Source of the DNA: Rhodospirillales bacterium
GTDB taxonomy: Bacteria; Pseudomonadota; Alphaproteobacteria; Acetobacterales; Acetobacteraceae
Assembly: GCA_018971455.1 (NCBI GenBank)
Contig: JAGXAV010000024.1
Coordinates: forward strand, 1 to 11,707
Direction: 5' to 3'
Length of the DNA stretch: 11,707 nucleotides
In this document: positions 1-11,707 of the stretch, one piece after another
How the letters are laid out: the number at the start of each line of letters is the position of its first letter
How positions within the stretch are numbered: position 1 is the stretch's first letter
Notes under the pieces: model-generated
What the model was told of the DNA's origin: nothing
What the model saw: the letters and a program-made list of their open reading frames with translations, nothing else
Database searches by the model: none
Program-made: the position numbers and the translations under genes

Positions 1-550
1 CACCGTCGGCATCGCCTACAGCCTGGTGATCGCGCTGGTGGTCTATCGCGGCGGGCTGAGCTGGGCGCGGATGCAGCCGATGCTGGTACAGACCGCGTCC
101 TTGTCGGGGGCCATCCTGTTCATCGTCGGTGCCGCTTCGGCGATGGCGTGGGCGCTGACGCAGTCGGGCTTCTCGCATGATCTGGCGGTGGTGATGGCCG
201 CGGTGCCCGGCGGGTGGATCGGCTTCATGCTGATCTCGATCCTCGCCTTCATCGTGCTCGGCAGCGTGCTCGAGGGTATTCCGGCCATCGTGTTGTTCGG
301 CCCGCTGCTGTTTCCGATCGCGCGCAGCCTGGGCGTGAACGAGGTGCACTACGCGGTGGTGGTGGTCCTGGCGATGGGGCTGGGCCTGTTCGCGCCGCCG
401 TTCGGCCTTTGCTACTACGCGGCGTGCATCATCGGCGAAGTCTCGCCGGAGGCGGCTATCCGACGGATCTGGGTGTACCTGTTCGCGCTGCTTCTCGGCC
501 TGCTGGTGATCGCCTTCGTTCCGTGGATCTCGACGGGATTTCTCGGCTAG
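1..550 (+). CDS. TRAP transporter large permease (DctM-type), C-terminal part only
   Basis: Inner-membrane ion-coupled permease of a tripartite ATP-independent periplasmic (TRAP) transporter; only the last 182 codons are present (open frame from base 2, stop TAG 548-550), so the start lies outside the window. Visible are a run of hydrophobic helices and the conserved DctM stretch VLEGIPAIVLFGPLLFPIA, followed by GLGLFAPPFG and a C-terminal hydrophobic segment ending STGFLG. It is a close paralogue of the C-terminus of the fused permease at 6193-8067: by hand alignment about 121 of 182 residues are identical, and both end with the same six residues. It may therefore also be a DctQM fusion, but the front cannot be seen. 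It would be the last gene of an upstream operon, convergent with the LysR gene. Family is certain, substrate unknown. Confidence 0.93.
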   Translation, partial: TVGIAYSLVIALVVYRGGLSWARMQPMLVQTASLSGAILFIVGAASAMAWALTQSGFSHDLAVVMAAVPGGWIGFMLISILAFIVLGSVLEGIPAIVLFGPLLFPIARSLGVNEVHYAVVVVLAMGLGLFAPPFGLCYYAACIIGEVSPEAAIRRIWVYLFALLLGLLVIAFVPWISTGFLG

Positions 551-572
551 CGCGGTGACGGCCGCAGCCCGA

Positions 573-600
573 TGACCGGCCGCCGGCCGGGAGCCGGTCA
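573..600. terminator. Hairpin between convergent genes, possible bidirectional terminator
   Basis: Perfect 8-bp inverted repeat: TGACCGGC (573-580) pairs with GCCGGTCA (593-600) around a 12-base GC-rich loop. It sits in the 61-base gap between the stop of the upstream TRAP permease and the stop of the minus-strand LysR gene, where a shared terminator is expected. There is no T-tract on either side, so intrinsic termination is not assured; in GC-rich genomes such hairpins may instead act with Rho or protect 3' ends. Confidence 0.45.
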
Positions 601-611
601 GCGCCGACGGG

Positions 612-1532
612 TCACGGGAAATCGAGCCGGATGCCGAGTTCGGCCGCGATCCAGCGGGCGAGTGCGAGCAGCTCCGGCCGGTAGCGCTCGGCGCGTGGAA
701 ACGTCAGCCAATGGCCGACGTAGCGCACCGCGCGGCTGCGCGGCAGGGGGCATACCAGCCTCCCGCTGGCCAGTTCGCGCTCGGCAAGGCGGGTCGATTC
801 CAGCGCCACGCCCAGCCCGTCCGCCGCGGTGCAGATCGACAGGAAGCTGCGATCGAAGCGCGGGCCGCGCGGCTCCGGTGCCGCCAGATCGTTGGCGGCG
901 AACCAGGCCGGCCAGCGCACCTGCTTGTTGTCGCTCTCGATCAGGGTCTGGCCGAACAGGTCACGCGGGCTGCGAATGTGGGCGGCCAGTTCCGGCGTGC
1001 AGAGCGGCAGCACCTCCTCCTCGCCGAGCGGCAGGACGATGATGGGCGGATGGCGGCTGCGCGCATAAGCCTCCGCCCAGCCCACGCCATAGACGATATC
1101 GGCATCGAAGGCGCCGGTCTGGAAGCGGGTATAGTCCACGCCGGCGGAGATCTGCAGCTCCAGCCCCTCGCAATCGGTGAGCAGGCGCGGCAGGCGCGGC
1201 ACCAGCCATTGCGCGGCTATGCTGGGCGCGCAGTGCATGCGCAGCAGGCTGCGGTTGCGCCCCGAGATGGCGCCGAGGCCACGCTGCAATTCCTCGAAGC
1301 CCTGCTGGACATGGCGCAGAAGCGTCTCGCCCTGCGGCGTGAGATCGATGCGCCGGCGGTCGCGCACGAAGAGCTTGGTCTGCAACGAATCCTCCAGCCC
1401 GCGGATGGCGTGGCTGATGGCGCTCGGCGTCACATGCAGCGCGTCCGCGGCGGCGCGGAACGACCCGGTGCGGGCGGCCGCCTCGAAGCTGCGCAAAGCG
1501 GTGAGAGGAATTTGTTGCATCGCGGAAGACAT
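612..1532 (-). CDS. LysR-family transcriptional regulator, GcvA-like subgroup
   Basis: A 306-residue LysR-type regulator, the normal family length. The N-terminal winged helix-turn-helix covers roughly residues 8-67, with SFRAAADALHVTPSAISHAI as the helix-turn-helix and FVRDRRRIDLTPQGE as the wing; the helix that follows would be the dimer linker. The rest (about 95-306) is the two-lobed periplasmic-binding-protein-like effector domain, resembling the GcvA/AmpR/TrpI group (for example CAPSIAAQWLVPRL near its start). I chose ATG at 1532, which is preceded by an AGGTGA about 12 bases upstream on the minus strand; ATG at 1520 is an alternative but has no visible ribosome site. It is divergent from the SDR-transketolase-TRAP operon, so it most likely senses that pathway's substrate or intermediate and controls the operon and itself. 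The effector is not identifiable from sequence. Confidence 0.93.
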   Translation of the reverse strand: MSSAMQQIPLTALRSFEAAARTGSFRAAADALHVTPSAISHAIRGLEDSLQTKLFVRDRRRIDLTPQGETLLRHVQQGFEELQRGLGAISGRNRSLLRMHCAPSIAAQWLVPRLPRLLTDCEGLELQISAGVDYTRFQTGAFDADIVYGVGWAEAYARSRHPPIIVLPLGEEEVLPLCTPELAAHIRSPRDLFGQTLIESDNKQVRWPAWFAANDLAAPEPRGPRFDRSFLSICTAADGLGVALESTRLAERELASGRLVCPLPRSRAVRYVGHWLTFPRAERYRPELLALARWIAAELGIRLDFP

Positions 1533-1549
1533 GGTGAACCCAATTCACC
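1533..1549. promoter_or_regulatory. Candidate LysR operator (T-N11-A palindrome)
   Basis: GGTGAA (1533-1538) and TTCACC (1544-1549) form a perfect 6-bp dyad with a 5-base spacer. It contains TGAA-N5-TTCA, which satisfies the T-N11-A rule of LysR-family boxes (T1535, A1547). It ends one base before the start codon of the LysR gene and lies within the 96-base divergent intergenic region, about 80 bases before the SDR start. This placement fits autoregulation together with control of the divergent operon. A weaker dyad, CAAA-N7-TTTG (1558-1572), lies just downstream and could be part of an activation half-site. The motif is seen; the function is inferred. Confidence 0.5.
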
Positions 1550-1628
1550 TTTCGGTGCAAATTTCGCGTTTGATCATTGGTGCCGCCGGTTCCACCAAGG
1601 GGCAACTGAAAAACCCCTGGAGGAAGCG
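1550..1628 (+). promoter_or_regulatory. Presumed promoter and leader region of the catabolic operon
   Basis: This is the only gap upstream of the plus-strand operon and holds its AT-richest stretch (about 1556-1580). I see no convincing sigma-70 -35/-10 pair, which is common for LysR-activated promoters. It ends with a strong ribosome binding site, GGAGGA at 1619-1624, placed before the SDR start codon at 1629. The transcription start cannot be fixed from sequence. Confidence 0.4.
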
Positions 1629-2378
1629 ATGCTGCTATCTGGTCGTGTGGCCGTCATATCGGGGGCGGCGAGCCGCCGTGGCATTGGCCGCGCGACGGCG
1701 GGCCTGTTCGCGACCCATGGGGCGCGCGTGGTCATCCTCGATCTCGACGCTGCCGGCGCCACCGCGGCGGCGGCCGAACTCGGCCCCCAGCATCTCGGCT
1801 TCGGCTGTGACGTCACCGATCGCGCAAGCTGTGCGGCCGCGTCCGAGCAGGTGCTGGCGGCGTGCGGCCATGTCGACATCCTCGTCAACAATGCCGGCAT
1901 CACCCAGCCGGTGAAGCTGATGGACATCACCGAGGCCGACTGGAAGCGCATCATGGCCGTCAATCTCGACGGCGTGCTGAATCTCAGCCAGGCCTTCGTG
2001 CCGCATATGCGCGCCCGCCGGCAGGGCTCGATCGCCTGCATGTCCTCGGTCTCGGCGCAGCGCGGCGGCGGCATCTTCGGCGGGCCGCACTACTCCGCGG
2101 CCAAGGCCGGCGTGCTCGGCCTGGCCAAGGCGATGGCCCGCGAACTGGGGCCGGACAATATCCGCGTCAACTGCGTGACCCCCGGCCTGATCCAGACCGA
2201 CATCACCGGCGGCATGCTGACCAACGAGATGAAGACCGAAATCCTCAAGGGCATCCCGCTGCCGCGCCTGGGCGAGGCGCAGGACGTCGCCGGCGCGTTC
2301 CTCTTCCTCGCCTCCGACCTGTCTTCCTACATCACCGGGGCGGTGATCGACGTCAACGGCGGCATGCTCATTCATTGA
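1629..2378 (+). CDS. SDR-family NAD(P)-dependent oxidoreductase
   Basis: A 249-residue classical short-chain dehydrogenase/reductase, typical in length and expected to be a cytosolic tetramer interconverting a secondary alcohol and a ketone. Seen: dinucleotide-binding glycine motif SGAASRRGIG (residues 11-20, longer by a residue or two than the usual GxxxGxG); Asp38 ending beta-2 (VVILD), which favours NAD over NADP; NNAG 87-90; Asn112; Ser139-142 region; catalytic Tyr155 and Lys159 in YSAAK; PG at 185-186. The ATG at 1629 follows GGAGGA and gives the full Rossmann start; longer in-frame extensions only overlap the opposite-strand regulator. First gene of the operon, 14 bases before the transketolase N-subunit. 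The 3-oxoacyl-ACP reductase (FabG) label that automatic pipelines often give would be misleading here; context suggests oxidation of a polyol or sugar acid (compare gluconate 5-dehydrogenase-type SDRs). The substrate is inferred only. Confidence 0.93.
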   Translation: MLLSGRVAVISGAASRRGIGRATAGLFATHGARVVILDLDAAGATAAAAELGPQHLGFGCDVTDRASCAAASEQVLAACGHVDILVNNAGITQPVKLMDITEADWKRIMAVNLDGVLNLSQAFVPHMRARRQGSIACMSSVSAQRGGGIFGGPHYSAAKAGVLGLAKAMARELGPDNIRVNCVTPGLIQTDITGGMLTNEMKTEILKGIPLPRLGEAQDVAGAFLFLASDLSSYITGAVIDVNGGMLIH

Positions 2379-2392
2379 GCGGGAGCGGTGCG

Positions 2393-3241
2393 ATGACCCA
2401 ACCGACACGCTTCAGCAACGCGCCGAGTCTGGCCGCGCGGGCCTGGCGCATCCGCCGGCACGCCCTGCGCATGGGCGAGGTGCAGGGGCAGGGGTACATC
2501 GCCCAGGCGCTCGGCATCGCCGACGTCCTGGCTGTCGCCTATTTCCACGCCCTGGCCTACCGCGCGGAAGACCCGGCCTGGGAGGGGCGCGACCGCTTCC
2601 TGCTTTCGATCGGCCATTACGCCATCGCCCTCTACGCGGCGCTGATCGAGGCCGGGGTAATCCCCGAGGAGGAACTCGAGACCTACGGCGCCGATGACAG
2701 CAGGCTGCCGATGTCGGGCATGGCGACCTACACGCCGGGCATGGAGATCAGCGGCGGCTCGCTCGGCCAGGGGCTGGGCATGGCCGTGGGGATGGCGCTC
2801 GGGCTGAAGCGCAAGACATCCCCTGCCTTCGTCTACAATCTCATGTCCGATGGCGAGCTCGGTGAGGGCGCCACCTGGGAGGCGGCGATGTCGGCGGCGC
2901 ATTGGAAGCTCGACAACCTGATCTGCGTGGTGGATTTCAACAACCAGCAGGCTGACGGCCCCTCCACCGACATGCTGTGCAGCGAGCCGCTGGCGCCGAA
3001 ATGGGCGGCGTTCGGCTGGCACGCCCAGCGCGTCGATGGCAACGACATCGACGCCGTGCGCGCCGCCTTCGATGCCGCGCGGGCGCTGACGGCGCCGCAG
3101 CCGCGCGTCATCATCTGCGACACCCGCATGGCCAAGGGCGTGCCCTTCCTGGAGGCGCGCGACCGCAACCACTTCCTGCGCGTCGAGGCGGATGAATGGG
3201 CAAAGGCGCTCGACGTGCTCGACGCGGGGCGCGTGTCATGA
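2393..3241 (+). CDS. Split transketolase, N-terminal (TPP-binding) subunit
   Basis: A 282-residue protein covering only the PP domain of transketolase; the Pyr and C-terminal domains are in the next gene, and both are needed for a thiamine-diphosphate enzyme. Seen: diphosphate/Mg motif SDGELGEG (residues 152-159, Ser replacing the first Gly of GDG) continuing to DFNNQQADG (181-189, Asn183 as metal ligand); GSLGQGLGMAVGMALG (122-137); SIGHYAIALYA, retaining His75; and His260. Unusual: the canonical GHPG near the N-terminus is GQGYIA, putting Tyr35 where the substrate-channel His normally is, and the GHPD/GHPE motif before TPG is MSGM, putting Ser108 in place of another channel His. The start ATG at 2393 has GGGAG seven bases upstream. 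It shares an ATGA overlap with the C-subunit gene, implying 1:1 coupled translation. Known split enzymes with non-standard substrates include AptAB (apulose-4-phosphate) and SqwGH (sulfoglycolysis). Family sure, substrate unknown. Confidence 0.92.
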   Translation: MTQPTRFSNAPSLAARAWRIRRHALRMGEVQGQGYIAQALGIADVLAVAYFHALAYRAEDPAWEGRDRFLLSIGHYAIALYAALIEAGVIPEEELETYGADDSRLPMSGMATYTPGMEISGGSLGQGLGMAVGMALGLKRKTSPAFVYNLMSDGELGEGATWEAAMSAAHWKLDNLICVVDFNNQQADGPSTDMLCSEPLAPKWAAFGWHAQRVDGNDIDAVRAAFDAARALTAPQPRVIICDTRMAKGVPFLEARDRNHFLRVEADEWAKALDVLDAGRVS

Positions 3242-4227
3242 GCGCCGGCAAGCCCCGCCTGACCACTTCGGCGATGATCGCCTCGATCGCCTCGGAAGGT
3301 CAGCGCACCAAGCCCGCGCCTTTCGGGCACGCGCTCGCGGCCCTTGCCGCCGATCGCCCGGACATCGTCGGCATGACCGCCGATCTCGGCAAATACACCG
3401 ATCTGCACATCTTCGCGAAGGCCTTCCCCGATCGCTATTACCAGATGGGCATGGCCGAGCAGCTGCTGATGGGGGCGGCCGCCGGCATGGCGCGCGAAGG
3501 CTTCATGCCGTTTGCCACCACCTATGCGGTGTTCGCCGCGCGGCGGGCCTACGATTTCATCTGCCTCGGCATCGCCGAGGAGAAACTAAACGTCAAGATC
3601 GTCTGCGCCCTGCCGGGGCTGACGAGCGGCTACGGGCCGAGCCATCAGGCCACCGAGGATCTCGCCATCTTCCGCGGCATGCCGGAGCTCACCATCGTCG
3701 ATCCGTGTGACGCACTGGAGATCGAGCAGGCGGTGCCGGCGATCGCCGCCCATCGCGGGCCGGTCTATATGCGCCTGCTGCGCGGCAACGTGCCGCTGGT
3801 GCTCGACGAGTACAATTACCGCTTCGAACTGGGCAAGGCGGCCCTGCTGCGCGACGGGGCGGATGTGCTCATCGTGTCCTCCGGGCTGATGACCATGCGC
3901 GCGCTGGAGACGGCGAACGCGCTGCGGGCCGACCGCATCGACGCCGCGGTGCTGCACGTGCCGACCATCAAGCCGCTCGACGAGGCGACCATCCTCACCG
4001 CGGCCGCGCGCACCGGCCGGCCGGTGGTGGTCGCCGAGAACCATACCGTCATCGGCGGATTGGGTGAGGCCGTCGCCGCCACGCTGCTGCGCGGCGGCAT
4101 CACCCCACGCTTCCGCCAGATCGGCCTGCCGGACGCCTTTCTCGATGCCGGCGCCCTGCCCACGCTGCACGACCGCTACGGCATCTCCACCGACGCCATG
4201 GTGCAGACGCTGCGGGCCTGGCTGTGA
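3238..4227 (+). CDS. Split transketolase, C-terminal (Pyr plus C-domain) subunit
   Basis: A 329-residue partner of the preceding protein, carrying the pyrimidine-binding domain (about residues 25-190) and the transketolase C-terminal domain (about 200-329). Seen: TADLGKYTDL (47-56); Glu74 in QMGMAEQ, the Glu that activates the thiamine aminopyrimidine; GYGPSHQATED (131-141), corresponding to the canonical GEDGPTHQ region; MRLLRGNVP (178-186); and GGLGEAVAA in the C-domain. Compared with canonical enzymes, the conserved His before this loop is replaced (CALPGLTSGYGPSHQ) and the Glu-Asp pair is reduced to Tyr132, so substrate recognition should differ. The start ATG at 3238 overlaps the upstream stop by four bases, and the gene overlaps the next by GTGA. 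1-deoxyxylulose-5-phosphate synthase is excluded because that enzyme is a single chain. Confidence 0.92.
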   Translation: MSAGKPRLTTSAMIASIASEGQRTKPAPFGHALAALAADRPDIVGMTADLGKYTDLHIFAKAFPDRYYQMGMAEQLLMGAAAGMAREGFMPFATTYAVFAARRAYDFICLGIAEEKLNVKIVCALPGLTSGYGPSHQATEDLAIFRGMPELTIVDPCDALEIEQAVPAIAAHRGPVYMRLLRGNVPLVLDEYNYRFELGKAALLRDGADVLIVSSGLMTMRALETANALRADRIDAAVLHVPTIKPLDEATILTAAARTGRPVVVAENHTVIGGLGEAVAATLLRGGITPRFRQIGLPDAFLDAGALPTLHDRYGISTDAMVQTLRAWL

Positions 4228-5120
4228 CGCAACCCGCCGCCAGCATCGCCGCGGTCGGTTTCGTCGGCCTCGGCGCCATGGGCCTGCCGATGGCCCAGGC
4301 GCTGCTGGCGCGCGGGTTCGTGGTGCGCGGGCATGATCTGCGCACCGCCTCCACCGCCGCTCTGGTCGAGGCCGGCGGGATCGCCGCCGGCTCGGCCGCC
4401 GCCGCCGCGACCGGGGCCGACGCCCTGGTTCTGATGGTGGTGGACGCGGCACAGGCCGAAGCCGTGCTGTTCGACGAGGGCGCGCTCGAGGCGCTGCCGC
4501 CGCACGGCCTCGTCGTGCTGACCGCGACCTGCCCGCCAGCGGCGGTCACCGCGATTGCGGGGCGCGTGTCGGCGAGCGGGCGGCGCTTCATCGATGCGCC
4601 GGTATCCGGCGGCGTGGCCGGCGCGCGTGCCGCGCGGCTCACCATCATGGCCGCCGGCCCTTCGGCCGACATCGCGGCAGTGCGCCCGCTGCTGGCGGCG
4701 TTCGGCGAGCGCATCTTCCATGTCGGCGAACGGCCCGGCCAGGGTGCGGTGATGAAGAGCGTGAACCAGCTGCTCTGTGGCGCGCATCTCGCCGTCGCGG
4801 CGGAGGGGCTTGCGCTCGCGACGCGGCTCGGCGTGGATGGGCGGATCGCCCTGGAGATCATGGGCGGATCGGCGGCGGCGAGCTGGATGTTGAACGATCG
4901 CGGCCCGCGCATGCTGGAGGCGACGCCCGAGGTGACCAGCGCAATCGACATCTTCGTCAAGGACCTCGGCATCGTCATGCAGGCCGGCCGCGACAGCCGG
5001 GCCGCCCTGCCGATCGCGGCCATCGCCCATCAGCTATTTCTGTCCGTCTCGGGCCGCGGCGAAGGCGGTGCCGATGACAGCCAGGTGATCCGTGCCTATC
5101 GCGCGCTGAACGGTCCCTGA
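4224..5120 (+). CDS. NAD(P)-dependent beta-hydroxyacid dehydrogenase (HIBADH/tartronate semialdehyde reductase/LtnD family)
   Basis: A 298-residue beta-hydroxyacid dehydrogenase of usual length. The N-terminal Rossmann domain begins GFVGLGAMGLPMA (residues 12-24) with His-Asp at the end of beta-2 (GHD, 36-38). The substrate loop is DAPVSGGVAGA (124-134) with Ser128-Gly129-Gly130, the carboxylate-binding signature of 3-hydroxyisobutyrate and tartronate-semialdehyde enzymes. The catalytic Lys is Lys178 in MKSVNQLLCG with Asn181, and KDLG (246-249) is also conserved. The QLLCGAHLAVAAEG stretch reminds me of L-threonate dehydrogenases (LtnD), but the kinase and aldolase partners of that pathway are absent. 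The start is GTG at 4224 in a GTGA overlap with the transketolase C-subunit stop. It probably reduces or oxidises the short hydroxy- or aldehydo-acid made or used by the split transketolase; the direction is unknown. Confidence 0.9.
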   Translation: MTQPAASIAAVGFVGLGAMGLPMAQALLARGFVVRGHDLRTASTAALVEAGGIAAGSAAAAATGADALVLMVVDAAQAEAVLFDEGALEALPPHGLVVLTATCPPAAVTAIAGRVSASGRRFIDAPVSGGVAGARAARLTIMAAGPSADIAAVRPLLAAFGERIFHVGERPGQGAVMKSVNQLLCGAHLAVAAEGLALATRLGVDGRIALEIMGGSAAASWMLNDRGPRMLEATPEVTSAIDIFVKDLGIVMQAGRDSRAALPIAAIAHQLFLSVSGRGEGGADDSQVIRAYRALNGP

Positions 5121-5164
5121 CCCTGCGGGCGGATTTCACACAAGACCATCAAGGGAGAAGAAAC

Positions 5165-6196
5165 ATGACGACCAGACAACACGGCTTCCGCCCCGTCACC
5201 CGCCGCGGCCTCCTCGCCGCCGGCGCCGCGCTGCCGCTTTGCGGCATTCTCAGCCGCCGCGGCTATGCGGCGCAGTTCTCCTACAAGCTGGCCACCGGCC
5301 AGGATCCGACGCACCCTATCAACATCCGCGACCAGGAGGCCATCAACCGCATCCAGGCGGCGAGCGGCGGGCGGCTCGAGATCAAGCTCTTTCCGGCCAA
5401 CCAGCTCGGCTCGGACACCGACCTGCTCTCGCAGGTCCGCAACGGCGGCGTGGAACTTTTCAACCTCGCGACATCCATCCTCGCGACCTTCGTTCCCGTC
5501 GCCGGCATCGTGAACACCGGCTTTGCCTTCCCCGATTACGCCACGGTGTGGAAGGCGATGGACGGCGCGCTCGGCCAGCATATCCGCGCGCAGATCAACA
5601 AATCCGGCATCGTCTCGGTGTCGCGCATGATGGATAACGGCTTCCGCCAGATCACCACCTCGACGAAGGTGATCGCGACACCGGCCGACCTGCACGGGCT
5701 GAAGCTGCGCGTGCCGCCGGCGCCGATGCTGACCTCGCTGTTCCAGGCCTTCGGTGCGGGGCCGGCGCCGATCAATTTCAACGAGGTCTATTCGGCGCTG
5801 CAGACCAAGGTGGTCGAGGGGCAGGAGAACCCGCTGGCCATCATCGCCACCGCGCGGCTGTACGAAGTGCAGAAATTCTGCAGCATGACCAGCCATGTGT
5901 GGGATGGCTATCTGATCCTCGGCAATCGTGGCGCATGGACGGCCCTGCCGAAGGACCTGCAGGACATCGTCATGCGCGAGTTCGACCACTCGGCCGAAGA
6001 CCAGCGCGCCGACATCGCCAAGCTCAGCGTCTCGCTGCAGAAGGACCTGACGGCGAAGGGCCTGGTCTTCAACGAACCCGACAAGGCGGCATTCCGCGCC
6101 GCCCTCGCCAAGACCAGCTTCTACGGCGAGTGGAAGAAGAAGTACGGCGCCGAAGCCTGGGGCCTGCTCGAGGCCAGCACCGGCAAGCTGGTGTGA
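5165..6196 (+). CDS. TRAP transporter substrate-binding protein (DctP family)
   Basis: A 343-residue periplasmic solute receptor of the DctP/TAXI-unrelated TRAP class. The N-terminus has a twin-arginine-like signal (TRRGLLAAGAALPLCGIL, residues 12-29) with probable cleavage after GYA (33-35), so export may go through Tat or Sec. The mature protein shows DctP hallmarks: KLATGQDPTHPINI (41-54); LFPANQLGS (75-83); GLKLRVP (178-184) with Arg182, the family's conserved carboxylate-clamping Arg; and VVEGQENPLAII (216-227). In this family the ligand is nearly always an organic acid. The ATG at 5165 follows GGGAG by seven bases; the 44-base gap from the dehydrogenase gene has no terminator-like hairpin that I can see. 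The stop overlaps the permease start by GTGA. It delivers the operon's substrate to DctQM. Confidence 0.95.
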   Translation: MTTRQHGFRPVTRRGLLAAGAALPLCGILSRRGYAAQFSYKLATGQDPTHPINIRDQEAINRIQAASGGRLEIKLFPANQLGSDTDLLSQVRNGGVELFNLATSILATFVPVAGIVNTGFAFPDYATVWKAMDGALGQHIRAQINKSGIVSVSRMMDNGFRQITTSTKVIATPADLHGLKLRVPPAPMLTSLFQAFGAGPAPINFNEVYSALQTKVVEGQENPLAIIATARLYEVQKFCSMTSHVWDGYLILGNRGAWTALPKDLQDIVMREFDHSAEDQRADIAKLSVSLQKDLTAKGLVFNEPDKAAFRAALAKTSFYGEWKKKYGAEAWGLLEASTGKLV

Positions 6197-8067
6197 CCGG
6201 CGCCGGCGCATACGCGGCCGCCGACGCGCCCGTGCCGCCCCGCTGGGCGGTACGGGCGGATGCGGTGCTCGGCCGGCTCGTCGAGATTCCGGCCGCCCTG
6301 CTGGTGGTGGCCGAAATGGTCGTGCTGTTTGCCGGCGTGGTGGCGCGCTATGTGCTCGACAGCCCGCTCGTCTGGTCCGACGAGCTGGCGTCGATGCTGT
6401 TCCTGTGGCTCGCCATGCTCGGCTCGGTGGTGGCGCTGCGGCGCGGCGAGCATATGCGCATGACGGCGCTGGTCGGCCGCGTCGGCCCGCGCACGCGCGG
6501 CTTTCTGGAGGTGGTGGCGATCGCGGTGCCGCTGGCCTTCCTCGCGCTGATCATCGTGCCCGGCGTGCGGTTTGCCGCCGGCGAGGGTTTCGTCACCACG
6601 CCGGCGCTGCAGATCCCGGGATCCTGGCCGGCCGCGGCCTTCCCGGTCGGCGCGGTGCTGATGCTGCTGGTCGCGCTGCTGCGGCTGGCGCGCGTCGGCA
6701 ACTGGCGGCTGGTGGCCGGCGCCGGCCTGCTGGTCGGCGGCATCATGCTCGCCTTCGTTGCCGCCGCCCCGCTGCTGCAACCGCTGGGCAATCTCAACCT
6801 GGTGATCTTCTTCGTCGTGCTGGTGGCGGCGATGGTGCTGGGCGCCGTGCCCATCGCCTTCGCTTTCGGGCTGGCGACGTTCGGCTATCTCGGCCTGACC
6901 ACGCATGTGCCGTCGATGGTGCTGGTGGGGCGGATGAACGAGGGGATGTCGCAGCTCATCCTGCTGGCCGTGCCGCTTTTCGTCATCCTCGGTATGCTGA
7001 TGGAGATGACCGGCATCGCGCGCGCCATGGTGCAGTTCCTGGTCTGTCTGCTCGGCCATGTGCGCGGCGGGCTGTTCTATGTGCTGGTCGGCGCGATGTA
7101 TCTCGTGTCCGGCATTTCGGGATCGAAGGCGGCCGACATGGCGGCGATCGCCCCGGTGCTGTTTCCGGAGATGAAGGCGCGCGGCGCGCGCCCCGGCGAG
7201 CTTCTGGCCCTGCTGGCGGCGACCGGCGCGCAGACCGAGACGATTCCGCCGAGCCTGGTTCTGATCACCATCGGCTCGGTCACCGGCGTCTCGATCGCGG
7301 CACTGTTCACCGGCGGGCTGCTGCCCGGGCTGCTTCTCGGCCTCGTGCTGTGCCTCGTCGTGCGCATGCGGCTGCGCGGCGAGACGGCCGAAGCCCTGCC
7401 GCCGCGCGCGCCCTGGCCGGTGATCGGGCGCAGCTTCGTCATCGCCCTGCCGGGCCTCGCGCTGCCGTTCGTGGTGCGCTACGCGGTGATCAGCGGTGCC
7501 ACCACGGCGACCGAGGTGTCGGTGGTCGGCGTGGTCTATTCGGTGCTGGTCGGCCTGCTGGTCTATCGCCGGTTCGACTGGCGCGCTGTGATGCCGATGC
7601 TGGTCGAGACGGCCGCGCTCTCCGGCGCCATCCTGATCATCATCGGCGCGGCCACGGGCATGTCCTGGGCGCTCACCCAGTCGGGATTTTCCCAGCAGCT
7701 CGCGGCCACCATGGCGGCGTTGCCGGGCGGCAAGGCGAGCTTCCTCGCGGTGTCGATCATCGCCTTCGTCGTGCTCGGCAGCGTGCTCGAGGGCATTCCC
7801 TCGATCGTGCTGTTCGGCCCGCTGCTCTTCCCGATCGCGCGCAGCCTCGGCATCAACGAGGTGCACTACGCCATCGTGGTGGTGCTGGCGATGGGCGTGG
7901 GGCTGTTCTCGCCGCCCTTCGGCGTGGGCTACTACTCGGCCTGCGCGGTCAGCCGCATTCACCCCGATGCCGGGCTGAAGCCCATTTTTCGCTACCTCGT
8001 TGCCCTGGTACTCGGCCTGCTGGTGATCGCCGCGGTGCCGTGGTTCTCCACCGGCTTCCTCGGCTGA
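6193..8067 (+). CDS. Fused TRAP transporter permease DctQM
   Basis: A 624-residue inner-membrane protein in which the small (DctQ) and large (DctM) TRAP subunits are one chain. The DctQ part is about residues 25-165, with RYVLDSPLVWSDELA (52-66) and RRGEHMRM (83-90) typical of the family. A connecting hydrophobic segment (about 174-195) leads to DctM (about 198-624), with NEGMSQLILLAVPLFVILGM, SGISGSKAADMAAIAP (306-321), IPPSLVLITIGSVTGVSIAA, and VLEGIPSIVLFGPLLFP near the C-terminus. The extra segment is expected in fusions, to bring DctQ and DctM into the right topology. The start is GTG at 6193, overlapping the binding-protein stop; no in-frame ATG occurs before the first helix. Its C-terminal third is about two-thirds identical to the permease fragment at 1-550. 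Confidence 0.94.
   Translation: MTGAGAYAAADAPVPPRWAVRADAVLGRLVEIPAALLVVAEMVVLFAGVVARYVLDSPLVWSDELASMLFLWLAMLGSVVALRRGEHMRMTALVGRVGPRTRGFLEVVAIAVPLAFLALIIVPGVRFAAGEGFVTTPALQIPGSWPAAAFPVGAVLMLLVALLRLARVGNWRLVAGAGLLVGGIMLAFVAAAPLLQPLGNLNLVIFFVVLVAAMVLGAVPIAFAFGLATFGYLGLTTHVPSMVLVGRMNEGMSQLILLAVPLFVILGMLMEMTGIARAMVQFLVCLLGHVRGGLFYVLVGAMYLVSGISGSKAADMAAIAPVLFPEMKARGARPGELLALLAATGAQTETIPPSLVLITIGSVTGVSIAALFTGGLLPGLLLGLVLCLVVRMRLRGETAEALPPRAPWPVIGRSFVIALPGLALPFVVRYAVISGATTATEVSVVGVVYSVLVGLLVYRRFDWRAVMPMLVETAALSGAILIIIGAATGMSWALTQSGFSQQLAATMAALPGGKASFLAVSIIAFVVLGSVLEGIPSIVLFGPLLFPIARSLGINEVHYAIVVVLAMGVGLFSPPFGVGYYSACAVSRIHPDAGLKPIFRYLVALVLGLLVIAAVPWFSTGFLG
7522..8067 (+). repeat. Region duplicated with 2-550 (paralogous DctM 3' ends)
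   Basis: These 546 bases align with bases 2-550 with one codon difference and similar nucleotide sequence. The most conserved block includes an identical 23-base run at 254-276 and 7771-7793, continuing with few mismatches for about 100 bases. This reflects paralogy of two TRAP permease genes rather than a recent perfect duplication, since about one third of residues differ. It could still serve as a substrate for recombination that would delete everything between. Confidence 0.7.
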
Positions 8068-8107
8068 CCCGCGGCCCTCGCAGCCTTTGCAAATCTCGGA
8101 GCTTCCG

Positions 8108-10099
8108 ATGTCCGACGTCGATTCCCGGCTCATGGCCAATGCCATCCGCTTCCTGGCGATGGACGCGATCGAGCGCGCCGGCGATGGCCATCCCGGCGCG
8201 CCGCTCGGCTGCGCGGAAATCACCACCGCACTGTTCACCCGCCACCTGCGCTTCAACCCCGCCGATCCGCAATGGTTCGACCGCGACCGCTTCGTGCTGT
8301 CCAACGGGCATGGCTCGATGCTGCTCTACGCGCTGCTGCACCTGAGCGGCTATGAGCGCATCAGCATCGACGAGATCCGCAACTTCCGCACGCTTGGCGC
8401 CCATTGCGCCGGCCATCCAGAGCATGATCCGCAGGCCGGCATCGAGGTCACCACCGGACCGCTCGGGCAGGGCATCGCCAATGCCGCCGGCATGGCGGTC
8501 GCCGAGACCTTCCTGCGCACCTGGCTGGGCGCTGATCTGGTCGATCACCGCACCTACGCCCTGGTGGGCGATGGCTGCCTGCAGGAGGGCATCGGGCAGG
8601 AGGTCATTTCGCTCGCCGGCCATCTGCGCCTCGGCCGGCTGACCTTCCTGTGGGACGACAACCAGATCACCGACGATGGCAGCCTCGATATCGCCCAGCG
8701 CGACGACATGGGCGCGCGGTTCCGCCTCAGCGGCTGGCATGTGCAGGAGGTGGACGGCCATGATGTCGAGGCGGTCGCCGCCGCCCTGCTGCTCGCGCGG
8801 CAGGATCCACGCCCTTCGATGATCGCCTGCCGCACCATCATCGGGCGCGGCATTCCCCGCGTGCAGGGCCAGCGTGGCGCCCATGGCGGGCGGGTCTTCG
8901 CCGCGGACACGGCGGCGGCGCGCGACTATCTGGGCTGGGAGCACGGTCCTTTCATCATTCCGCCGGACATCCGCGCGGCCTGGCGCGCCGGCGGGGCGCG
9001 CAATGCGCCGGACTACGATTCCTGGCAGACGCGTCTCGCGGCGCTGCCGACGGAGCGGCGGCAGCTGCTGGACCGGCTGCGCGCCGGACGCCTGCCGGAG
9101 GGCTGGGAGCGGCCGCTGCGCGCCTGGCGCGAGGAAGCGGCGGCGAGCGGACTGAGGCAAGGCGGCATCAACAGCTCCGCCGACATCGTCGAGAGGCTGG
9201 CCGAGGCCATTCCGGAGTTGATCTCCGGCGCGCCGGACCTCGAAGGCCCGACGCAGCACAAGCGCCGGCTGTCGGCCTTCGGCGCCGGCGATCCGGGCGG
9301 GCGCTACGTTCACTACGGCGTGCGCGAGCACGCCATGGGGGCGATGCTGAACGGCATGGCGGCGCATGGCGGGGTGGTGCCGCTTGGCGTCACCTACCTG
9401 GTGTTCTCGGATTACGAGCGCCCCGCGATGCGCCTGGCGGCGATGATGGGCGTGCCGTCCCTGTTCGTGTTCAGCCATGATTCCATCGGCATCGGCCGCA
9501 ACGGCCCGACCCACCAGCCGGTCGAGTTCCTTGCCTCGCTGCGCGCGATGCCCAACATGCACGTCTTCCGCCCGGCCGACGCGGTCGAGGCGGCGGAATG
9601 CTGGGAGGCGGCGCTCGCGAATCGCGGCGGCCCTTCCGCGCTGATCTTCTCGCGCCAGCTATTGCCGCCCGTGCGCCGCGAGGCCGGCGGACCCAACCGT
9701 TCCGCACTTGGCGCCTATGTGCTGGCCGAGGCCGAGGGCGGGCCGCATCGGGTCACGTTGCTCGCCACCGGCTCGGAAGTTGCCATCGCGCTCGCCGCCC
9801 GCACGATATTGCAGGCCGAAGGCGTGCCCACCTCCGTGGTGTCGATGCCGTGCTGGGAGGCTTTCGAGAAGCAGGATGCGGCGACGCGGGCGGCCGTCAT
9901 TCCGCGGGGCACCGTGCGCGTCGCCGTCGAGGCGGCGATCCGCCAGGGGTGGGACCGCTGGATCGGTGAGGATGGCGGCTTCGTTGGCATGAGCGGGTTC
10001 GGTGCCTCGGGCCCGGAAGCCGAGCTTTTCGCGCATTTCGGCATCACGGCCGAGGCCGTCGCCGAGACCGCGCGCCGGCGCCTTGCGCCAAACGGGTAG
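8108..10099 (+). CDS. tkt: Full-length transketolase, atypical substrate-site residues
   Basis: A 663-residue transketolase with PP, Pyr and C-domains in one chain (E. coli enzymes are also about 663), transferring a two-carbon ketol unit with thiamine diphosphate. Seen: GHPGAP (His28), NGHGSM (His68), GHPE (His103), TTGPLGQG (116-122), GDGCLQEG (154-161) to DDN (183-185), His259, catalytic Glu407 in YGVREHAM, His457 in HDSIGIG, GPTHQP (466-471) and SRQ (515-517). A gapless alignment to E. coli TktA from memory (constant offset of 4) puts Ile354 at Arg358, Asn465 at Asp469 and Pro381 or Thr382 at Ser385; the first and third bind the substrate phosphate, and Asp469 reads the C2 hydroxyl. The start ATG at 8108 has GGAG upstream; TTG at 8087 is less likely. 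It lies 40 bases after dctQM with no hairpin, so it is probably the last gene of the operon. Whether it is the housekeeping enzyme or pathway-specific is open. Confidence 0.93.
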   Translation: MSDVDSRLMANAIRFLAMDAIERAGDGHPGAPLGCAEITTALFTRHLRFNPADPQWFDRDRFVLSNGHGSMLLYALLHLSGYERISIDEIRNFRTLGAHCAGHPEHDPQAGIEVTTGPLGQGIANAAGMAVAETFLRTWLGADLVDHRTYALVGDGCLQEGIGQEVISLAGHLRLGRLTFLWDDNQITDDGSLDIAQRDDMGARFRLSGWHVQEVDGHDVEAVAAALLLARQDPRPSMIACRTIIGRGIPRVQGQRGAHGGRVFAADTAAARDYLGWEHGPFIIPPDIRAAWRAGGARNAPDYDSWQTRLAALPTERRQLLDRLRAGRLPEGWERPLRAWREEAAASGLRQGGINSSADIVERLAEAIPELISGAPDLEGPTQHKRRLSAFGAGDPGGRYVHYGVREHAMGAMLNGMAAHGGVVPLGVTYLVFSDYERPAMRLAAMMGVPSLFVFSHDSIGIGRNGPTHQPVEFLASLRAMPNMHVFRPADAVEAAECWEAALANRGGPSALIFSRQLLPPVRREAGGPNRSALGAYVLAEAEGGPHRVTLLATGSEVAIALAARTILQAEGVPTSVVSMPCWEAFEKQDAATRAAVIPRGTVRVAVEAAIRQGWDRWIGEDGGFVGMSGFGASGPEAELFAHFGITAEAVAETARRRLAPNG

Positions 10100-10104
10100 C
10101 ACCG

Positions 10105-10128
10105 CGCCGCCGCAAGGTTCCGGCGGCG
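10105..10128 (+). terminator. GC-rich hairpin just after the transketolase stop
   Basis: An 8-bp perfect stem, CGCCGCCG (10105-10112) with CGGCGGCG (10121-10128), and an 8-base loop, starting six bases after the TAG stop. Its position at the end of the long operon suggests termination or mRNA 3' end protection. No T-tract follows, so factor-independent termination is uncertain. Confidence 0.5.
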
Positions 10129-10170
10129 GCACGGCCCCGTCGGCTGCTTCCTCGTCGGCCTCTGGCGGGC

Positions 10171-10184
10171 TTGCGCCAGATCAA
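10171..10184 (+). promoter_or_regulatory. Candidate FixK/FNR-family binding site
   Basis: TTGC-GCCAGA-TCAA fits the alphaproteobacterial FixK2/FNR pattern TTG(A/C)-N6-(T/G)CAA exactly; the right half matches the classical FNR half-site ATCAA, the left half less well. It is followed about 47 bases later by TACAAT (10231-10236), a five-of-six match to a -10 box, with no recognisable -35. Its centre is then roughly 62-66 bases before the likely transcription start, close to the class I activator position. This suggests oxygen-limited activation of the BON/pfkB unit. One box of this degeneracy can arise by chance. Confidence 0.4.
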
Positions 10185-10230
10185 TGCGCCCCCGCGCGCC
10201 CGCGCTAGGCTGCGGAGCAGCGTAGGGGGG

Positions 10231-10236
10231 TACAAT
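10231..10236 (+). promoter_or_regulatory. Possible -10 element of the BON/pfkB promoter
   Basis: TACAAT differs from the sigma-70 consensus in one base and stands in an otherwise GC-rich stretch. The expected -35 position (about 10207-10214) has no TTG, as is usual for activator-dependent promoters. It would leave a leader of roughly 170 bases before the BON start. Confidence 0.3.
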
Positions 10237-10412
10237 CATGCCCGCGACTTGTGGGACGGTCCGCTGGCTGGCCATGCCTGGAATGGGCGCCGTCGCCACG
10301 CCCCGGGGCCCGGAACGCCTTGATCGGCCCGAGCGATCTCGCCCAGCATCGCTTCCACCGCCATCACACCCGGCCGCCACTGCGCGGCACGACAATCGAG
10401 GAGCGCATCCCC

Positions 10413-11063
10413 ATGGATGATCAGGCCCTGCGCCAGATGGTCAGTGAGGAGCTGACGTGGGCGCCGCATGTCGATGCCACGAATATCACGGTCGATGTGC
10501 GGGACGGCGTCGTCCGCCTCGGCGGCGTGGTTGGCAGCCTTGCCGAGAAACACGCCGCCGAGCGCACCATCTGGCACGTGCGCGGCGTGCGCGGGCTGGT
10601 CGAGGAGATCGAGGTTCGCGTGCCGGAGGCGCTGCGCCATGGCGACACGGAAATCGCCCAGCGGGTGCGGAACGTGCTGCGCTGGGACGCACAGATCCCT
10701 GATGCAAGGCTGCGGATTAAGGTCGAGGACGGCGTGGTGACCCTGATGGGTACGCTTGATCGGCAGTACCAGCGGCAGGAAGCCGAGGCCCGCGTGCGCG
10801 CGCTGGAGGGGGTGCGGGGGGTGGCGAACGACATCGCCATCCGCCCGGCCGCGATCGCCCCCGACATCGCCGCCAATGTGCGCCGCGCGCTGGCGCGCCA
10901 CGCCGAGCTCGATGCCGGCCGGATCACCGTCGCAGTGGATGGCGCGTCGGTGGCGCTGGCCGGAACGGTGCCCAGCCTCGCCGCGCGACACGCGGCCGAG
11001 AACGCGGCCTGGTCGGCGGCCGGCGTGGCGGCGGTGGAGAACCGGCTGAGCGTGGCAAGCTGA
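10413..11063 (+). CDS. Protein with three BON domains
   Basis: A 216-residue protein made almost entirely of three tandem BON repeats, at about residues 4-70, 79-145 and 151-214. Each has the alpha-beta-beta pattern with a hydrophobic strand, DG, a second strand, G and a VxGV-like turn (for example VDVRDGVVRLGGVVGSLAEK, VEDGVVTLMGTL, and VDGASVALAGTVPSLAAR). BON domains are thought to bind phospholipid or other hydrophobic ligands and are common in osmotic- and stress-response proteins such as OsmY. There is no signal peptide or membrane segment, so it is probably cytosolic. The ATG at 10413 has GAGGAG nine bases upstream; an in-frame GTG at 10251 would add 54 non-BON residues and is rejected. 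It is followed one base later by pfkB. A specific function is not known. Confidence 0.88.
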   Translation: MDDQALRQMVSEELTWAPHVDATNITVDVRDGVVRLGGVVGSLAEKHAAERTIWHVRGVRGLVEEIEVRVPEALRHGDTEIAQRVRNVLRWDAQIPDARLRIKVEDGVVTLMGTLDRQYQRQEAEARVRALEGVRGVANDIAIRPAAIAPDIAANVRRALARHAELDAGRITVAVDGASVALAGTVPSLAARHAAENAAWSAAGVAAVENRLSVAS

Positions 11064-11064
11064 C

Positions 11065-11707
11065 ATGACCGAGCGGATCGTCACGCTCACGCTCAATCCG
11101 GCGATCGACCTGGCCTCCACCGCACCCGCCGTGCGGCCCCTCCATAAGATCCGCACCACCGGCGAGCATGTCGATCCCGGTGGCGGGGGGATCAATGTCG
11201 CCCGGGTGGTGCATGCGCTGGGCGGCGAAAGCCTGGCGGTGCTTGCGGCCGGCGGCGCCACCGGCCGGTTCCTGACCGAGCTGCTGGACGAAGCGGACGT
11301 GCCCTATCATGCCGTGCCGATCGCCGGACGCACGCGCGTCTCCATCACCGTGCGCGCGGCGGATACGGGGCTGGGATATCGCTTCGTTCCCGAAGGCCCG
11401 GTGCTGTCCGAACCGGAATGGCGCGTGTCGCTCGCGGCGCTCGACGAGGCGGAGGGCGGCTTCGTCGTCGCCAGCGGCAGCCTGCCGCAAGGCGTGCCGG
11501 CGGAGGCCTATGCCATCGCCGCGCGGGCGGCCGCGGCGCGCGGCCGCCATTTCGTGCTGGACAGCTCCGGAGAGGCCTTGCGGGCCGCGCTTGGCGCCGG
11601 CATTGCGCTGATGAAGCCCAGCCTGGGTGAACTGGAATCGCTGGTCGGCCGCACGCTGCCCGATGCCGACAGCCAGGCGGCCGAAGCGCTCGCCCTCGTG
11701 CGTGCCG
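11065..11707 (+). CDS. pfkB: 6-phosphofructokinase 2 (PfkB), 3' end cut by the window
   Basis: The first 214 residues of a ribokinase-fold sugar kinase that phosphorylates fructose 6-phosphate with ATP. It follows E. coli Pfk-2 closely: TLTLNPAIDLA at the N-terminus (7-17), PGGGGINVARVVHALGG (38-54), AAGGATGRFL (61-70), YRFVPEGP (105-112), SGSLPQGVP (137-145), DSSGEALRAAL (166-176) and the KPS-xx-EL stretch (184-190; KPN in E. coli). The ATP-site GAGD motif with the catalytic Asp lies beyond the window. The ATG at 11065 is separated from the BON stop by a single base and lacks a clear ribosome site, so translation is probably coupled. 1-phosphofructokinase or tagatose-6-phosphate kinase are relatives, but the GGGGINVAR and DSSGEAL stretches favour Pfk-2. 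In alphaproteobacteria such genes often sit with stress or hypoxia genes, which fits its BON neighbour. Confidence 0.88.
   Translation, partial: MTERIVTLTLNPAIDLASTAPAVRPLHKIRTTGEHVDPGGGGINVARVVHALGGESLAVLAAGGATGRFLTELLDEADVPYHAVPIAGRTRVSITVRAADTGLGYRFVPEGPVLSEPEWRVSLAALDEAEGGFVVASGSLPQGVPAEAYAIAARAAAARGRHFVLDSSGEALRAALGAGIALMKPSLGELESLVGRTLPDADSQAAEALALVRA

Follow-up and report, generated by a model that had tools for sequence, protein, structure and literature searches.

A conserved operon with a split transketolase-like enzyme and a second remodelled transketolase, proposed for the degradation of a short polyhydroxy acid

In this study, we analysed a window of 11,707 nucleotides from a Rhodospirillales bacterium of the Acetobacteraceae (GenBank assembly GCA_018971455.1, contig JAGXAV010000024.1, positions 1 to 11,707 of the forward strand), and found an operon that encodes the two halves of a split transketolase-like enzyme, here named TkA and TkB, together with a short-chain dehydrogenase/reductase (SDR), a dehydrogenase of the HIBADH family, a tripartite ATP-independent periplasmic (TRAP) transport system and a second, full-length transketolase, TK2. 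With a probability of roughly 0.55, we propose that the products of this operon import a short polyhydroxy acid and break it down, with TkA/TkB as the carbon-carbon cleaving step. The gene content, its conservation and the pockets rebuilt on an intact thiamine diphosphate (ThDP) site in two transketolases are read from the sequences, and from these we infer the steps of the pathway. The system is conserved and real, and it most likely serves a sugar acid, a branched C5 acid being about as good a fit as a pentonate. The genome assembly (85.8% complete) comprises 721 contigs totalling 3.1 Mb, with the window on contig C600; the gene families of the ten predicted window proteins were assigned with Pfam, and curated families were scored with NCBIfam cut-offs.

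Judged by its residues, TkA/TkB is a sharply bounded subfamily in which the cofactor site is intact and the substrate pocket has been rebuilt. The N-terminal half TkA (2393-3241, + strand, PF00456) and the C-terminal half TkB (3238-4227, + strand, PF02779 and PF02780) were read against E. coli TktA in 98 rows, four of 102 loci with a TkA frame and no TkB frame being excluded from the residue counts. The ThDP/metal residues and catalytic glutamate of transketolases (H66, D155, N185, E411 and H473), which mark the ThDP transketolase superfamily, are kept in 98/98 rows, and so are G114, H261 and R520 (E. coli numbering). In E. coli TktA, the donor is bound by H26 and H100, the hydroxyl by D469 and the phosphate by R358, S385, H461 and R520. 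Throughout the 98 rows, TkA carries Y (Y35) at H26 and S (S108) at H100, and TkB carries K52/Y53 at P384/S385, L125 at H461, a gap at R358 and a deletion of D469, so that the five residues of a canonical pentose-phosphate transketolase (H26, H100, R358, S385 and H461) read Y, S, gap, Y and L. The nearest solved structure to both halves is 6YAK (212 bits for TkA and 231 bits for TkB), the public records examined annotate both merely as transketolase, and a search of the open-licence PMC literature found no description of the TkA/TkB system.

The second transketolase, TK2 (8108-10099, + strand, 663 residues), has a remodelled phosphate/hydroxyl site: it exceeds the TIGR00232 cut-off (691 versus 682 bits), yet lacks the canonical R358, S385 and D469, with I, P, Y and N at E. 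coli R358, S385, F434 and D469. A full-length transketolase stands near TkA in 17 of the 110 loci described below, and 16 of these 17 copies are of the TK2 type, with I (13 copies) or V, W or Y (one each) for R358, P or A for S385, Y for F434 and N for D469; the sole exception is a canonical enzyme at locus L075. When 12 genomes with TkA/TkB were searched whole, all 19 other transketolases kept R358, S385 and D469, nine of them coming from the six genomes that also carry TK2, and 25 of 26 further best transketolase matches from the class were canonical. In the other transketolase of the window genome (L131), R358, S385 and F434 are as in the canonical enzyme, and the sequence ends before E. 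coli position 461. The difference between 16/17 copies near TkA and 19/19 elsewhere indicates that the operon has two specialised transketolases, the second of which automatic annotation treats as an ordinary one.

The genes of the operon are closely packed. The SDR gene (1629-2378, + strand, PF13561) is separated from TkA by 14 bp, and 4-bp overlaps join TkA to TkB, TkB to the accessory HIBADH-family (beta-hydroxyacid) dehydrogenase (4224-5120, + strand, PF03446 and PF14833), and the TRAP solute-binding protein DctP (5165-6196, + strand, PF03480) to the fused DctQ-DctM permease (6193-8067, + strand, PF04290 and PF06808); 44 bp lie between the dehydrogenase and DctP, and DctP, DctQ and DctM all exceed their Pfam cut-offs. 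TK2 starts 40 bp past the end of the permease on the same strand, thus the operon probably ends at 10099. The original prediction, made from the letters of this stretch, had described an SDR, a two-gene transketolase, a dehydrogenase with an SGG loop and a complete TRAP system, tightly coupled and divergent from a LysR regulator, and all of these genes are present in the order and on the strands it gave, the loop reading DAPVSGG. It was also right that no kinase, aldolase or dehydratase accompanies them, as none appears in the Pfam results for the ten predicted window proteins, and none of the genes predicted from 1629 to 10099 encodes a kinase; it erred in ending the operon at 8067, where TK2 was overlooked.

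The divergent LysR-type regulator (612-1532, - strand, PF00126 and PF03466) is GcvA-like, GcvA being its best NCBIfam model at 215 bits, below the cut-off of 288. A predicted LysR box, RTGAA-N5-TTCAY, is located at 1534-1548 (unstranded; here GTGAACCCAATTCAC, of the T-N11-A type), and of 37 LysR-SDR intergenic regions, 20 contain the exact pattern and 35 match it with no more than two mismatches. After 200 rounds of base shuffling, the regions with at most two mismatches numbered 6.0 on average and 13 of 37 at most, the pattern having been derived from the same 37 sequences on which it was scored, by statistics that ignore kinship.

Gene neighbourhoods were compared over 110 TkA loci, comprising the 80 best genome contig matches, 19 chosen plasmid loci, 10 class genomes and the window itself; no two are identical in their TkA DNA stretch, four belong to a divergent sister type, and locus L129, the E. 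coli AptAB used for comparison and a weak TkA match, was excluded. Neighbours were counted within 9 kb of TkA by similarity to a reference set; the counts are not frequencies, since contig ends truncate some loci and close relatives are over-represented in the sample. TkB occurs in 109 loci and the SDR in 99, which places the SDR/TkA/TkB set beyond chance, and LysR was found in 90, TRAP DctP in 74 and a galactonate-type MFS transporter in 11, never together with DctP. The core therefore consists of the regulator, the SDR and TkA/TkB, to which an acid transporter is added in most loci. The HIBADH-type dehydrogenase, part of the gene set of the original prediction, is present in only 31 loci and thus accessory. 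Less frequent neighbours are a D-2-hydroxyacid dehydrogenase resembling hydroxypyruvate/glyoxylate reductases (D2HADH, seven loci), glycerate 2-kinase (four loci, all with D2HADH), an aminotransferase and an FAH hydrolase (four loci each), a sugar ABC ATPase (15), an Amidohydro_2 (lactonase-type) gene (14), a TIM-barrel gene (18) and DhaKL (14, all with the TIM barrel). Skermanella has the fullest form, with SDR, TkA, TkB, TRAP, HIBADH, D2HADH and TK2 in succession, and Acinetobacter, Pantoea, Klebsiella and Chimaeribacter have the core set only, with the MFS protein as transporter.

The TkA search returned at least 8000 candidates at E <= 1e-10, not necessarily all of the TkA subfamily, and among the matches listed, 119 besides that of the window itself have 78-88% TkA identity. 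The plasmid collection holds 189 records matching TkA at E <= 1e-70, 188 of them more than 60% identical and one, an Arthrobacter plasmid, 59.9%; when all 635 matching plasmid records were sampled in even steps, the next one shown after the subfamily had 41.7% identity. An even sample of the class gave 13 of 385 genomes with a match at E <= 1e-80, the window genome included and four being of the sister type, and the subfamily peptide patterns were matched by at least 569 of 597 genome stretches.

The SDR keeps D38, S140, R145, Y155 and K159 in 90/90 rows, the window frame included, and its nearest solved structure is 7krk (327 bits). Since D38 is a residue of NAD-dependent SDRs and so means NAD(H), it fits an oxidation, and R145, close to the catalytic serine, could hold a carboxylate. 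The closest solved structure to DctP is 4OAN (405 bits, the next one scoring 147), with 52-56% identity in structure alignments made with a DctP model of medium quality (mean pLDDT 65.5); the ligand of 4OAN was reportedly modelled as (S)-2-acetolactate. Arg182 of DctP is invariant in a 16-row alignment and, by analogy with TRAP binding proteins in general, may bind the carboxylate. Where they occur, the Amidohydro_2 gene and the sugar ABC ATPase would fit import of a lactone.

As for the C3 product, the window dehydrogenase shares the HIBADH family with the tartronate semialdehyde reductases GarR/GlxR and the L-threonate dehydrogenase LtnD, but differs from both in falling below their curated cut-offs (341 and 350): its best-scoring model is L-threonate dehydrogenase (NF043037, 279 bits against 350), and it scores 182 bits against 340.75 for tartronate semialdehyde reductase (TIGR01505). 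It is probably the reductase of the C3 product. D2HADH (337 against 492) and glycerate 2-kinase (229 against 550) likewise fall short of their curated cut-offs, and the D2HADH of locus L112 is nearest to 2-hydroxyacid dehydrogenases, glyoxylate reductases among them. Together, these dehydrogenases and the glycerate 2-kinase point to glycerate and so to a C3 product, for which tartronate semialdehyde from a linear pentonate and hydroxypyruvate from a branched acid both fit.

In the pathway that we propose, the TRAP system would import the acid, and the SDR would use NAD+ to oxidise a secondary hydroxyl, giving a HOCH2-CO- keto acid. TkA/TkB would cut this unphosphorylated keto acid beside the ketone, so that the glycolyl C2 unit stays on ThDP and a C3 acid with an aldehyde or keto group, either tartronate semialdehyde or hydroxypyruvate, is freed. 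The HIBADH-family enzyme, or elsewhere D2HADH and glycerate kinase, would convert the C3 acid to glycerate and 2-phosphoglycerate, and TK2 or a housekeeping transketolase would move the C2 unit to pentose phosphates. The loss of phosphate contacts in 98/98 TkA/TkB rows parallels the engineered TktA R358I/H461S/R520Q, which supports cleavage of an unphosphorylated keto acid. In that study (PMC12016104), Gluconobacter with this E. coli variant formed 30.35 g/L tartaric semialdehyde from 5-ketogluconate, and the control strain less than 0.5 g/L. TkA/TkB has lost two of the three residues concerned, R358 and H461, but keeps R520, whereas the engineered enzyme is man-made, single-chain and unchanged at H26/H100.

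Several steps of this pathway had been put forward in the original prediction. Import of an acid agrees with the recognised acid transporters, which are TRAP or the galactonate-type MFS, and D38 favours the SDR as putative oxidising step. The idea of a transketolase as the cleaving step gains support from the lost phosphate contacts, while the pentonate considered there is a plausible candidate substrate. The cleavage of 5-ketogluconate cited there as precedent is indeed reported, but for an E. coli enzyme that had been engineered and introduced into Gluconobacter (PMC12016104). Reduction to glycerate is in line with the glycerate-forming genes of some loci, and not with the HIBADH-family enzyme as a constant agent of it.

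Identity of TkA/TkB with the known apulose-4-phosphate transketolase AptAB or the sulfofructose transketolase SqwGH, which would have refuted the original prediction, is very improbable. All are split transketolases of the same fold, and AptA/AptB of the D-apiose pathway, whose E. coli SE15 genes were located through PMC13001218, likewise lies in a catabolic operon, AptB lacking H461 and D469 as TkB does. However, TkA and TkB are only 35 and 34% identical to AptA and AptB, the donor site differs in that AptA keeps H26 and H100, and the neighbours of AptAB are genes for a sugar ABC transporter and an FGGY kinase rather than TRAP and SDR, no kinase gene lying at 1629-10099 in the window; we thus rejected this candidate. 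SqwGH resembles the proposed TkA/TkB in being split, in acting on an unphosphorylated substrate with an acidic head and, in one variant, in having a downstream reductase, as described in PMC11659671. The same paper calls R-S-F-H-R the phosphate-orienting motif of transketolases, and compared by this published motif, SqwGH has RAFDR, retaining both arginines, whereas TkA/TkB has gap-Y-Y-L-R, with R358 missing and L in place of H461. In the alignments, the split transketolase of Carboxydothermus hydrogenoformans (6YAK) differs in retaining the GHPGG, ATH and GEDG segments lost in TkA/TkB. A Bradyrhizobium transketolase alpha subunit, blr2168, which may or may not correspond to TkA, is listed in PMC5996035 as found only with mannitol, and the transketolases treated in PMC3234253 are of the cbb type.

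Some loci hold further genes around TkA and TkB. A TIM-barrel gene of the AP_endonuc_2 type occurs with TkA/TkB in Rhizobiaceae and Rhodobacterales (L005 12775-13599, L006 7259-9832 and L115 6259-8825), adjoining the DhaKL kinase in L006 and L115; its protein has the general AP_endonuc_2 barrel as its only Pfam assignment and one weak PDB match, and a comparison with NCBIfam gave nothing at E 0.001 and two weak matches at 0.008. The sister subfamily stands at 51-55% identity. In L121 (9210-12717) and L122 (8882-12354), the large and small subunits of methylamine dehydrogenase, MauD, a MauE-like protein and a cytochrome-like protein are encoded between the two halves of the TkA/TkB of this divergent type, the small subunit of L121 exceeding its NCBIfam cut-off, and in L119 (9611-10870) a frame that by eye resembles the mandelate racemase/enolase superfamily lies between divergent TkB and the downstream TRAP genes. 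With such neighbours, the reactions catalysed may differ across the wider family.

Which acid is degraded, and how, allows several explanations. Oxidation of a linear pentonate at C4, release of tartronate semialdehyde by TkA/TkB and its reduction to glycerate by the HIBADH enzyme is a rather doubtful candidate, supported by the adjacency in the window of TkB and a gene of the HIBADH/tartronate semialdehyde reductase family, by the glycerate kinase in four loci and by 5-ketogluconate cleavage (PMC12016104) as precedent for an omega-1 keto acid donor; against it, the top curated family of that enzyme is L-threonate dehydrogenase, not tartronate semialdehyde reductase, with neither cut-off reached, and the D2HADH genes suit hydroxypyruvate better. 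Hydroxypyruvate (or pyruvate) plus a C2 unit would instead arise if the SDR turned C3 of 2-C-(hydroxymethyl)- or 2-C-methyl-tetronate, a branched C5 acid, into a ketone and TkA/TkB then cut the resulting acetolactate-like keto acid of the 3-oxo-isoapionate type. This route, nearly as probable, would account for the D2HADH/glycerate kinase genes and the aminotransferase of four loci; AptB, which acts on the branched apulose-4-phosphate, has likewise lost H461 and D469, and 4OAN is by far the closest structure to DctP. However, DctP is only 52-56% identical to 4OAN, whose acetolactate ligand is putative, and no member has a demonstrated branched acid.

Two serial transketolase cuts, as in the sulfo-transketolase pathway, would take a hexonate to a C4 aldehydo-acid and on to glyoxylate by way of TkA/TkB, TK2 and an isomerase. 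One operon does hold two differently remodelled transketolases, 5-ketogluconate chemistry (PMC12016104) and the sulfo-transketolase (PMC11659671) offer precedents, and the nearest relatives of the L112 D2HADH include glyoxylate reductases; but neither the window nor 16 of the 17 loci with a full-length transketolase have the TIM-barrel gene, a possible isomerase, glycerate kinase is left unexplained and TK2 is confined to a minority of loci, which makes the scheme unlikely. Carboligation, in which TkA/TkB would join a C2 unit to formaldehyde or glycolaldehyde and supply dihydroxyacetone or erythrulose to the DhaKL kinase, is slightly more unlikely: DhaKL in 14 loci and the methylamine dehydrogenase genes that separate TkA from TkB in L121 and L122 would suit it, but the window genes include neither DhaKL nor amine dehydrogenase, and the core is SDR, TkA/TkB and acid transporter only.

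Degradation of a short polyhydroxy acid through cleavage by TkA/TkB, the explanation we prefer, also has findings set against it. It gives no reason for H26Y and H100S, which occur in neither AptA nor the engineered TktA. The phosphate-site loss that favours an unphosphorylated donor also makes a sugar-phosphate acceptor less certain, and the DhaKL and TIM-barrel genes of 14 loci and the methylamine dehydrogenase of the sister subfamily suggest other acceptors or substrates. The HIBADH-type gene was not found in 79 of the 110 loci, the window copy lying below every curated cut-off, and HIBADH, D2HADH, glycerate kinase and TK2 are found in none of the 11 MFS loci, which would draw on housekeeping enzymes for the C3 product. 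In 20 loci none of DctP, MFS and sugar ABC was recognised, some of them being cut by contig ends or having transporters outside the reference set, and genome G247, source of the one exception among the 26 class matches, has a TK2-type gene (L186 204-2297, near a contig end) but no TkA/TkB, which speaks against a strict link between the two.

At the margins of the window, the end of another TRAP DctM gene, truncated by the window start, occupies 2-547 and is about 67% identical to the operon permease, and a second related transport operon probably sits upstream. A three-BON-domain protein, OsmY-like although below the cut-off, is encoded at 10413-11063, 313 bp past TK2 on the same strand and probably unrelated, and the start of a frame resembling, by eye, a PfkB-family sugar kinase lies at about 11066-11707, the frame continuing past the window end.

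We give even odds to the view that two transketolases freed from sugar phosphates, the split TkA/TkB and the full-length TK2, evolved naturally in one operon type and, with one NAD-dependent SDR, make up a minimal, kinase-free and aldolase-free pathway of import, oxidation and cleavage that is spread over proteobacteria of the alpha, beta and gamma classes and occurs in at least one actinobacterium. If true, this would be an unrecognised catabolic route for a class of acids and the natural counterpart of the phosphate-independent transketolase engineered for tartaric acid production. The two remodelled pockets also offer a convenient way to examine how the specificity of transketolases evolves.

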